Origin: an uncultured Candidatus Saccharibacteria bacterium
Lineage (GTDB): Bacteria > Patescibacteriota > Saccharimonadia > Saccharimonadales > Saccharimonadaceae
NCBI GenBank assembly: GCA_946548715.1
Contig: CAMNPZ010000004.1
Location: 1-55,119 of the forward strand
Direction of reading: 5' to 3'
Length of the DNA stretch: 55,119 bases
Part shown: positions 4,982 through 50,934 of the stretch, piece by piece
Numbering within the stretch: the stretch's first letter is position 1
Layout: each line of letters begins with the position of its first letter
Translations under genes and position numbers: made by a program
Notes under the pieces: model-generated
Told to the model about the DNA's origin: nothing
The model's database searches: none
The model's input: the letters and a program-made list of their open reading frames with translations, nothing else

Positions 4982-5058
4982 CGTGGGGTAGAGCAGCCTG
5001 GTAGCTCGTTTGGCTCATAACCAAAAGGTCGTTGGTTCAAATCCAACCCCCACAACCA
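4982..5058 (+). tRNA. Initiator tRNA-fMet (CAU)
   Basis: A full cloverleaf with the CAU anticodon and an encoded CCA. Position 1 is C facing A72, the unpaired end that marks initiator tRNAs, and the D stem has A11-U24. The anticodon stem reads UUUGG/CCAAA, so the usual three G-C pairs at 29-31/39-41 are reduced to two, with U29-A41. An 18-nt copy of its 5' end follows at 5065. Confidence 0.95.
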
Positions 5059-5064
5059 ATTTAT

Positions 5065-5099
5065 TCGTGGGGTAGAGCAGCCGAGCGGCTCTTTTTTTT
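5065..5099 (+). terminator. Terminator built on a copy of the initiator tRNA 5' end
   Basis: Bases 5065-5082 repeat 4981-4998 exactly (18 nt: the tRNA 5' end through the D arm). The copied D-stem half GAGC pairs with a new GCTC, and eight T follow from 5092. The copy lacks the rest of the tRNA, so it is not a second gene. Confidence 0.8.
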
Positions 5100-11547: not shown

Positions 11548-11633
11548 AAAAATCCGCCACAGTGGTGTTTTCTCCGAACGAAGTGCGTCTAATTGACGAG
11601 CGAGTGAGGAAAAACGCCGAGATGGCGGATTTT
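11548..11633 (-). repeat. Long palindrome A; also terminator of the 67-aa gene
   Basis: Outer arms AAAATCCGCCA (about 11549-11559) and TGGCGGATTTT (about 11623-11633), with a second imperfect pair of arms inside (GGTGTTTTCTCC and GGAAAAACGCC) and a 30-base core. On the minus strand it ends in TTTTT just after the 11642 gene, so it can terminate that transcript. Confidence 0.7.
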
Positions 11634-11641
11634 AACAGGAA

Positions 11642-11845
11642 TTATTTCTTCTTTAGGGTTAAGAAGCCATTACGTGGATTCTCACAAACCATACGGTCTG
11701 CAGGAAGATCACAAGGAGTACCCTTGCCACCCTTCTCATCCTTAGTGAAGAAATAAATAGTCTGTGGTTTGCCACCGCGAAGAGTCACCTCGGACTTGTG
11801 TAGATAGTACTTTACACCTTTACTGTTGGTATGTTCGTAAGCCAT
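11642..11845 (-). CDS. Small conserved-type protein, 67 aa
   Basis: A short basic protein with the segments YYLHKSEVTLRGGKPQTIYFF and a C-terminal VCENPRNGFLTLKKK. I recall proteins with this layout (VTLRGG...IYFF...ENxRTGLPxLKKK) in many CPR genomes, with no known function; treat that as memory rather than a search. It has a strong AAGGAGG ribosome site and its own -35/-10 promoter, so it is likely well expressed as a single gene. No membrane segment or cysteine pair is present. It could be a small nucleic-acid-binding protein given its charge, but nothing proves that. Confidence 0.75.
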   Translation of the reverse strand: MAYEHTNSKGVKYYLHKSEVTLRGGKPQTIYFFTKDEKGGKGTPCDLPADRMVCENPRNGFLTLKKK

Positions 11846-16857: not shown

Positions 16858-16875
16858 TTTTTTGATGGTTCGCCC

Positions 16876-22818: not shown

Positions 22819-22828
22819 TAACGAAAAA

Positions 22829-22846
22829 AACGCCAAGATTGGCGCT
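22829..22846 (-). terminator. Terminator downstream of tRNA-Ser and its 3' copy
   Basis: CGCCA/TGGCG stem with a 4-nt loop, followed on the minus strand by seven T (complement of 22824-22830). Confidence 0.7.
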
Positions 22847-22849
22847 CCT

Positions 22850-22923
22850 ATGGCGGAAGGGACAGGATTCGATTGGAACGAAGTGACAAACGAGTCCTGC
22901 TTTTTGAGCATGCTTGTCAAAGC
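22850..22923 (-). repeat. tRNA-Ser 3'-end copy with T-arm-like hairpin
   Basis: Bases 22850-22872 repeat 22924-22946 exactly (23 nt: the tRNA-Ser 3' acceptor strand, CCA and half of the T arm). Between them lies a 51-base linker. On the minus strand the linker's GGACTCG pairs with the copied CGAATCC (one C-A mismatch), giving a T-arm-like hairpin followed by the acceptor 3' strand and CCA. The linker shares GGACTCGT and CTCAAAAAGC with the tRNA-Lys module at 50791. Confidence 0.85.
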
Positions 22924-22924
22924 A

Positions 22925-23010
22925 TGGCGGAAGGGACAGGATTCGAACCTGCGAGACGTTAATCTGCTGGTTTTCAAGACCAGTGCCATCAACCACTCGG
23001 CCACCCTTCC
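22925..23010 (-). tRNA. tRNA-Ser (UGA)
   Basis: An 86-nt class II tRNA with a long variable arm. The anticodon loop is CTTGAAA (UGA), the acceptor pairs GGAAGGG with CCCTTCC, and G73-CCA is encoded. TGGTATAAT on the minus strand (23018-23023) lies eight bases upstream. Confidence 0.95.
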
Positions 23011-49821: not shown

Positions 49822-50751
49822 ATGGTAATACCAATTATTCTAAGTCTTCTTGCAGCCATTTTCTACGCAGCGACTAATCATATAGACAAATACCTCATTT
49901 CTAAAGTCGTTAAAAAAGCCGACTATCGTGCTCTAATCTTAGTCTCCTCGATTATTGCTGGTGGCATCATGACACTAATCTACCTGTTTATTTGCAATTT
50001 TCAATTAGCCTTTGACATTCCGAGCATCCTATTATTACTATTTAATTCGGTACTTTATACAGTTGCAAACATTTTCTGGTTTAAAGCATTAAACAGAGAT
50101 AACACCACCATAATCGTCATTATGCTACAGCTCATTCCCGTCTTCACGCTCTTACTATCGCCACTCATATTACAAAATCAACATATTAGCGTACTGCAGC
50201 TCATTGGTGGCCTATTAATTACACTCGCCGCCATCATTCTTCCCTACGAACCAACACACAAGAAATTCAATCCCAAAAAACTCCTCACGCTCGCAATTAT
50301 GACTTTTGTATCTTTAGCTTACGCGGCTTGGTCCATCATTGAGCGATATGTCAATCAAGACCACGATTTTAATCAAACCATCTTATGGTCCAATATTACA
50401 TTGCTCCTTGTTGGTCTATTTATTTTTGTATTTATAAAATCGTATCGCAAATCTTTTTCGAAGCTTTTCCAAACCAACAAAACAAAAGTCATCAGCCTAA
50501 ATCTAATCAACGAAATACTCAACTCATTCGGCGATGTCTTCTCGACCCTTGCCGGGACGCTCGCATCTGTAGCCCTTGTCTCCTTCATTACACAAGGCAT
50601 ACAGCCATTCATAGTCATGTTAATGGGATTATTCATCACAAAACTATTCCCTAAAATTGAAAAAGAAAAAACCACCAAAACTGATATCATCAAAAGAACC
50701 ACCACTATCACGATGTGTCTCATCGGACTAGCGCTTATTGAATTCGGTTAA
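49822..50751 (+). CDS. EamA/DMT-family transporter, 309 aa
   Basis: Ten transmembrane helices arranged as two five-helix halves (about 1-140 and 150-305), the drug/metabolite transporter pattern, with an EamA-like segment ALNRDNTTIIVIMLQLIPVFT (about 90-110) and a partial repeat near residues 225-270. The substrate is unknown. TGGTATAAT (49809-49814) lies seven bases before the ATG. The gene is more AT-rich than most neighbours. The stop is followed by the tRNA-Lys module on the other strand. Confidence 0.78.
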   Translation: MVIPIILSLLAAIFYAATNHIDKYLISKVVKKADYRALILVSSIIAGGIMTLIYLFICNFQLAFDIPSILLLLFNSVLYTVANIFWFKALNRDNTTIIVIMLQLIPVFTLLLSPLILQNQHISVLQLIGGLLITLAAIILPYEPTHKKFNPKKLLTLAIMTFVSLAYAAWSIIERYVNQDHDFNQTILWSNITLLLVGLFIFVFIKSYRKSFSKLFQTNKTKVISLNLINEILNSFGDVFSTLAGTLASVALVSFITQGIQPFIVMLMGLFITKLFPKIEKEKTTKTDIIKRTTTITMCLIGLALIEFG

Positions 50752-50790
50752 AATCAAAAATGCCGCATCAGTGGCTTCCAATTCGAATTT

Positions 50791-50857
50791 TGGTGATCCG
50801 GGTGGGACTCGATTGGTAACAACGAGTCCAGCTTTTTGAGTTTTTGTGCAACAAAAA
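50791..50857 (-). repeat. tRNA-Lys 3'-end copy with T-arm-like hairpin
   Basis: Bases 50791-50812 repeat 50858-50879 exactly (22 nt). On the minus strand the tRNA is followed by a 45-base linker ending in GGACTCG-(11 nt)-CGAGTCC, a perfect 7-bp stem whose 3' half is the start of the copy, followed by the acceptor 3' strand and CCA. The linker shares CTCAAAAAGC and GGACTCGTT with the tRNA-Ser module (one mismatch over 20 nt). Confidence 0.88.
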
Positions 50858-50934
50858 TGGTGATCCGGGTGGGACTCGAACCCACGACACCAAGCTTAAG
50901 AGGCTCGTGCTCTAACCAGCTGAGCTACCGGACC
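50858..50934 (-). tRNA. tRNA-Lys (CUU)
   Basis: The acceptor GGTCCGG pairs with CCGGATC (one G-U), the anticodon loop CTCTTAA gives CUU, and CCA is encoded. TGATATAAT on the minus strand (50948-50953) lies 13 bases upstream. Its neighbourhood 50935-51081 holds nothing else that I can support. Confidence 0.95.

Follow-up and report, generated by a model that had tools for sequence, protein, structure and literature searches.

What places an exact copy of a tRNA gene's own 3' end a short distance behind that gene, and why should two unrelated tRNA genes that carry such copies share the linker in between? The question is raised by a 55,119-nt stretch of DNA, referred to here as the window, which is contig 4 of the 781-kb, 26-contig genome (G000) of an uncultured Candidatus Saccharibacteria bacterium. 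A sequence-only reading of its tRNA-Lys locus had offered two answers, a sequence-specific insertion into tRNA T arms or a conserved RNA element that must match its tRNA. Linker and copy together are termed a module below, and the features of the Lys and Ser loci are as follows.

50858..50934, minus strand: tRNA-Lys (anticodon CTT), CCA encoded (ARAGORN; Rfam RF00005, 67.3 bits)
50841..50857, minus strand: hairpin 1 of the Lys module, directly abutting the CCA, TTTTTGTTGCACAAAAA (sequence)
50831..50837, minus strand: A-tract AAAAAGC of the Lys module, the conserved portion of the common linker
50823..50829, minus strand: Lys arm GGACTCG, reverse complement of the tRNA's own T-loop/T-stem strand (56-62)
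50813..50822, minus strand: loop of hairpin 2 of the Lys module, TTGTTACCAA (sequence)
50791..50812, minus strand: exact 22-nt copy of the tRNA-Lys 3' end, including CCA
50755..50775, minus strand: putative intrinsic terminator past the Lys copy, GCC..GGC ATTTTT (read from sequence)
22925..23010, minus strand: tRNA-Ser (anticodon TGA) (ARAGORN)
22911..22924, minus strand: hairpin 1 of the Ser module, TGCTTTGACAAGCA (sequence)
22889..22908, minus strand: common linker motif CTCAAAAAGCAGGACTCGTT of the Ser module, including the arm (22891-22897)
22851..22872, minus strand: exact copy of the tRNA-Ser(TGA) 3' end
22824..22845, minus strand: putative intrinsic terminator past the Ser copy, GCGCC AATCT TGGCG TTTTTTT (read from sequence)

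On the minus strand, the Lys module runs from the CCA through the TTTTTGTTGCACAAAAA hairpin, CTC, AAAAAGC, T, GGACTCG and a 10-nt loop to TCGAGTCCCACCCGGATCACCA, which repeats the final 22 nt of tRNA-Lys (source 50858-50879) exactly, 67 bases on and behind a linker of 45 nt. In hairpin 2 the 3' strand comes from the first 7 nt of the copy after T55, giving a perfect 7-bp stem in which GGACTCG (50829-50823) pairs with CGAGTCC (50811-50805); both the displaced copy and the perfect stem had been described in the sequence-only reading and were borne out. Because the putative terminator comes after the copy, the Lys module would lie within the transcribed trailer. The layout behind tRNA-Ser(TGA) matches that of the tRNA-Lys module, with its own 3' end copied. 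The 20-nt motif that the two linkers had been said to share, CTCAAAAAGC(A/T)GGACTCGTT, indeed occurs at exactly two sites in the window (50821-50840 and 22889-22908), against 0.00 expected from 100 shuffles, and the remaining six window tRNAs have no copy of their own 3' end of the module kind. The claim of a common linker joined in each case to the tRNA's own 3' end stood, but the genome as a whole carries four such short modules and not two, behind Lys, Ser-TGA, Ser-CGA (contig 15) and Gln-CTG (contig 3). A single 20-mer is common to all four, Gln differing at three of the 20 bases, and the arm GGACTCG is present in each, where it is perfect for Lys and has one C.A mismatch in Ser-TGA, Ser-CGA and Gln. 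None of the other G000 tRNAs has the short unit, and four have the longer kind described below as type iv.

Other self-similar trailers were seen in the window. Behind tRNA-Met (4982-5058) lies an exact 17-nt copy of its own 5' end, CGTGGGGTAGAGCAGCC (5066-5082, plus strand), which runs into the terminator hairpin GAGCAGCCGAGCGGCTC TTTTTTTT. tRNA-Arg(TCT) is followed immediately by a T-run and then by TGATGGTTCG, which repeats the 5' half of the tRNA's own T-arm (16863-16872, plus strand).

The sequence-only reading had allowed for a one-off duplication, with the linker at two sites only and absent from close relatives; the modules instead proved to be widespread in the genus. A linker-blind search pattern (T-loop, 3' end, 32-62 nt, T-loop strand, 3' end) had matches in 29 of the 40 genus genomes and its reversed control gave 0 matches; some matches were neighbouring tRNAs, and after a check of copy identity genuine modules stood in at least 21 of the 40. 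No module was found in about 60 other genera of the same family, and a phylum-wide search returned few matches, which resembled other things such as tRNA-like 3' halves. When 84,980 GTDB genomes were scanned for an exact 19-mer, one tRNA-linked site came up, in a Candidatus Saccharibacteria MAG (L025) with stacked modules behind tRNA-Ser(CGA); the other 8 matches had no own-tRNA copy at the match. Among the 279 distinct tRNA-plus-trailer sequences collected, 125 copies occurred at 109 loci of 30 tRNA species, exact over 18 nt in 98 cases and with the CCA intact in 121. Where the copy has the form running from C56 to the CCA, 93 matched their own tRNA and 0 matched another; the copy always corresponds to the tRNA upstream. 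Some copies are shortened or differ by 1-3 substitutions, and an exact CCA end is therefore not required.

Other sites were noticed as well. Two Ser(CGA)-type modules form an array by themselves (L108; genome G012, contig 33, around 16824) with no recognisable tRNA upstream, possibly the remnant of a lost tRNA gene. The right half of a module, consisting of a loop and an exact tRNA-Tyr 3' end with no arm, lies about 1.2 kb past a tRNA-Tyr module on its downstream side, closely behind a protein gene (L213; G026, contig 3, 24097-24118). In other Patescibacteria families, short tRNA-like 3' halves that read ..GCGGGGC...GGTTCGAATCC...CCA sit closely behind tRNA genes (L126, L131, L142 and L146); they do not copy the tRNA in front of them, and may be fragments of tRNA genes that are unusual or interrupted.

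Modules can be sorted into types by the order of their parts. Those of type i run from a CCA-abutting hairpin 1 through an A-tract and hairpin 2 to the copy; in 43 of the 47 modules hairpin 1 has a perfect stem no shorter than 5 bp, compared with 12% of shuffles, and it has 34 different sequences among the 47. Type ii begins with a real terminator hairpin (often GCGCCTCCAGTGGGCG TTTTTT AGTTGGG), followed by hairpin 2 and the copy, and its linker is common to Arg, Leu, Gln, Ile and Asn tRNAs across several genomes. Type iii, on Ser tRNAs, has a 13-15 bp hairpin that pairs T-stem and acceptor strand. In type iv a structured core some 130 nt long, GACGAGAACCGTAGGTTCGGACG...CGACGCCC, is closed by an arm that pairs with the copied T-stem of its own tRNA; in G000 the core occurs only behind tRNA-Tyr, Val-GAC, Glu-CTC and Glu-TTC (contigs 3, 2 and 5; L071, L068-L070 and L075), about 55-130 nt from the tRNA 3' ends. 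The type iv element has no Rfam match, and Rfam scans of the modules gave tRNA and sub-threshold matches only. Units may be repeated in tandem, as identical (L254, L264), near-identical (L240) or different, stacked units (L216, L265), and often duplicate the terminator too (L038, L055 and L119, and also Escherichia coli lysV). Another element, a long palindrome of about 110 bp that contains an internal terminator, is scattered for the most part immediately downstream of tRNA genes, in G000 behind tRNA-Tyr, Ser-GCT, Leu-TAA and Leu-GAG, and a diverged copy lies at 11555-11643 of the window, far from any tRNA.

The relationship between arm and tRNA was examined in the 104 distinct modules with a copy that begins at C56 of the T-loop. 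In 60 of them all 7 nt of the arm are complementary to the module's own tRNA, against 5.8 expected under permutation of the tRNAs; on average 6.44 of 7 positions match, compared with 5.57 (sd 0.06) for permuted tRNAs. All four Watson-Crick pairs are found at position 59 (G-C 52, A-T 27, C-G 11, T-A 6), and the tRNAs with A57 have T in the arm in 7 of 7 cases. This covariation supports the second of the two original answers, a conserved nucleic-acid structure obliged to match its tRNA, and shows a module fold that comprises a CCA-abutting hairpin and a second hairpin of the arm and the copied T-strand. Hairpin 2 is far more stable than its shuffles (median z -3.3), with a loop of about 8 to 27 nt, and in around a quarter of arms, mostly in modules with the A-tract, one extrahelical purine occupies a constant place. 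Partition-function folding gave distal acceptor pairing of 0.90 with native and 0.88 with shuffled linkers; its dominance even with shuffled linkers is probably a multiloop artefact of the energy model, and folding in silico did not show the tRNA fold to be shielded by the native linker. Of 18 substitutions in the copied acceptor strand, 15 leave it able to pair with the 5' strand of the tRNA; this hints at selection for pairability, but C-to-T bias accounts for most of it. Of the three functional predictions examined, namely this one, protection of the fold and reverse termination, none received clear support.

The trailers turn over quickly. In about 80 sequences of the tRNA-Tyr and tRNA-Ser(TGA) loci the tRNAs are conserved and the trailers hypervariable, and many module-bearing tRNA species have empty sites in relatives. 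For tRNA-Tyr, the empty site of G000 reads CCA|AAATTCGAATTG (elsewhere written AAATTCGAATTGAAAGGCGCC) and the occupied site of G037 reads CCA|linker+copy|AATTCCGAATTG (elsewhere AATTCCGAATTGAAAGGCGCC). At one locus where tRNA and copy differ (L217), it is the copy that keeps the form of the base common in relatives. In many type i modules the sequence past the distal copy is not a repeat of that past the proximal CCA, and simple tandem duplication therefore does not cover all modules.

The sequence-only reading had known of no described element like this, which is mistaken as to kind. The RtT RNA, or rttR repeats, of the E. coli tyrT operon are described in Rfam RF00391 and by Bosl and Kersten 1991 (as quoted in PMC2965389 and PMC4986893). 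In E. coli K-12, the tyrT trailer contains three tandem 178-nt units; each finishes with AATCCTTCCCCCACCACCA, identical to the tRNA-Tyr 3' end (19/19), and has a core opened by an arm, GGGGAAGGAT, that is complementary to the copied end. The lysT, lysW, lysY, lysZ, lysQ and lysV trailers of K-12 likewise each repeat the 3' end of their own tRNA exactly, and the Rfam RtT model matches the Tyr and the six tRNA-Lys trailers. Among E. coli strains, lysV alleles differ by exactly one unit and have 0, 1 or 2 units, each of which includes the terminator, as in several Saccharibacteria type ii modules. RtT-like units with an exact own 3'-end copy (16/16) were also observed in the K-12 argQ, argZ and argV trailers (L276), where the Rfam RtT model scores below threshold; the Arg and most Lys units have a common core, GGATAACGTTGC...GCAACGGCCCGAAGGGCGAG, and tRNA-matched arms such as CCAGGGAGGAT for Arg. 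Since the Tyr, Lys and Arg trailers of E. coli show the same plan, the combination of a shared linker with the 3' end of each tRNA itself is of a known kind.

Like RtT repeats, the Saccharibacteria modules sit in the tRNA trailer, end in a copy of the 3' end of their own tRNA and are closed by an arm complementary to that copy. They differ in that type i and ii units measure 60-80 nt, with an arm that pairs over 7-10 bp with the T-loop/T-stem strand from C56, in often adding a CCA-abutting hairpin, and in occurring on about 30 tRNA species. The argQ, argZ and argV repeats share with them the exact own 3'-end copy and the tRNA-matched arm, but have a longer core and neither A-tract nor CCA-abutting hairpin. 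The RtT covariance model, which matches its E. coli control, matches none of seven genus genomes at E<=1, so the modules are not members of the RtT family by sequence. By analogy of architecture, and not by sequence homology, they are an RtT kind of tRNA-trailer repeat.

Integrative elements targeted to tRNAs (attL/attR; Islander, PMC4383910) also have the tRNA 3' end, from the T-loop onward, as a direct repeat. Unlike these, the modules have no element, integrase or cargo inside the repeats and a gap of mostly 35-60 nt, together with tandem units and an inverted arm matched to the tRNA. A tRNA-integrated genomic island was rejected for the Lys module, given its 45-nt gap and a genome with only one, near-universal, tyrosine recombinase. 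An integrase-type att core geometry was rejected as well, because T-loop bases form part of the arm and loop length is variable.

The idea of a sequence-specific mobile insertion with its own enzyme found no support in the enzyme search, G000 having no Y1 transposase, no reverse transcriptase and a single tyrosine recombinase. The latter is of a kind present in 38 of the 40 genomes; the recombinases seen amount to one Xer-like protein in nearly all genomes, none of them module-linked. Y1 (HUH) transposase (PF01797) is absent from 39 of the 40 genomes, G000 included, and its absence there led to rejection of the modules as IS200/IS605 or REP/RAYT elements. Reverse transcriptase (PF00078) is absent from nine module-bearing genomes (G000, G004, G010, G018, G020, G025, G026, G029 and G039), of which G010 and G029 are module-rich, and an origin as a retroelement or retron product was rejected on this ground. 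None of these genes, whether integrase, HUH or reverse transcriptase, follows the distribution of the modules.

The modules lie in tRNA trailers, with a terminator beyond them, have a conserved structure, copy exclusively their own tRNA, occur as tandem units and vary in presence and absence. We consider it most likely, with confidence about evenly balanced, that they are RtT-type, co-transcribed, structured trailer RNAs spread by tandem duplication. A tRNA 3' end would have been duplicated in tandem, sometimes with its terminator, through replication slippage or template switching, and the direct repeats would then expand, contract and stay matched through recombination. Related linkers sit on unrelated tRNAs, so this explanation needs some route of spread. 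Maturation of the pre-tRNA would release the module as a small RNA with a tRNA-like CCA end. An arm kept complementary would lock the second T-strand in a hairpin of its own, sparing the real T-arm, and the free acceptor-like tail could serve as a spare or decoy 3' end.

A possible, though rather doubtful, alternative is that the modules are a non-functional by-product of replication, in which template switching at the tRNA 3' end and terminator, which are rich in hairpins and partly palindromic, writes the inverted arm and the direct copy, and recombination between direct repeats homogenises, expands and deletes units. Inverted T-arm pieces and direct 3' ends do recur across architectures (types i-iv), but so do loops such as TTCTTCGAAT and GACCTTCGGTG, the A-tract and the extrahelical purine, on different tRNAs and in different genomes, which chance switches would not be expected to produce. 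Hairpins would on this account persist because palindromes keep regenerating, yet hairpin 1 is nearly always perfect while its sequence is free, as selection would give, and the other genera of the family are without modules. The lack of any enzyme that tracks the modules, the frequent duplication of the terminator (L038, L055, L119 and lysV) and the fast turnover that leaves many tRNAs empty in relatives all fit such a by-product.

Because related linkers are found on unrelated tRNAs and foreign 3' ends are not, some weight, if small, attaches to a mobile hairpin that writes its own target. A conserved linker would be inserted behind a tRNA, the same event writing the copy of that tRNA's 3' end and the complementary arm; that Saccharibacteria and Enterobacteria share such a process in principle, without a dedicated transposase, is similarly improbable. 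No enzyme for it was found.

Integron attC sites are hairpins of variable sequence with an extrahelical base and a variable terminal stem. Module hairpins have these same properties, and it is conceivable, though distinctly unlikely, that the modules are site-specific mobile cassettes, a recombinase recognising the T-arm or the folded hairpin 2 and inserting the linker into the T-loop, so that the tRNA 3' end is left duplicated. The attC-like hairpin 2, with its extrahelical base and variable apical stem, the start of the copy at C56 in most of the modules collected, the linker common to unrelated tRNAs and the clean insertion right after the CCA would all suit this mechanism. A circular cassette, however, would import a tRNA 3' end of its own, and 0 foreign ends were seen; in contrast to attC, no module-linked integrase or cassette genes were seen and the stem sequence is dictated by the tRNA. 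Nor do an arm with T-loop bases and a variable loop resemble the fixed 6-8 bp overlap of tyrosine recombinases, and hairpin 1 has no conserved end sequence. The sole tyrosine recombinase of G000 is near-universal, G028 carries modules with no tyrosine-recombinase match, and two hairpin-2 cores found no match among IMG/VR viral contigs.

A reverse-strand terminator, in which the A-tract and hairpin 2 read on the opposite strand (stem, then GCTTTTTG) stop convergent transcription into the tRNA, has in its favour the A4-A7 immediately 5' of hairpin 2 in type i (47 of the 104 modules) and the window gene at 49822-50751 that points toward tRNA-Lys, but is very improbable, since neighbour orientation is not enriched (type i, 18 convergent and 11 codirectional; no module, 59 and 48), 25 of the 57 modules of other types have a T-run rather than an A-tract ahead of the arm, and the tRNA-specific copy is left unexplained.

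The copying of a tRNA's own 3' end together with a matched arm had looked like a peculiarity of E. coli tRNA operons. With the modules, RtT repeats become a comparative and testable problem in which covariation predicts structure, and the natural lysV alleles of E. coli with 0, 1 or 2 units provide ready-made genetics in strains of the laboratory. By analogy, the Saccharibacteria trailers are a new and unusually varied relative, in kind, of the RtT oddity, with a putative function. The presence of the same plan in unrelated sequence, on about 30 tRNA species of ultra-small bacteria from a distant phylum, argues for a general mode of tRNA gene evolution or regulation.
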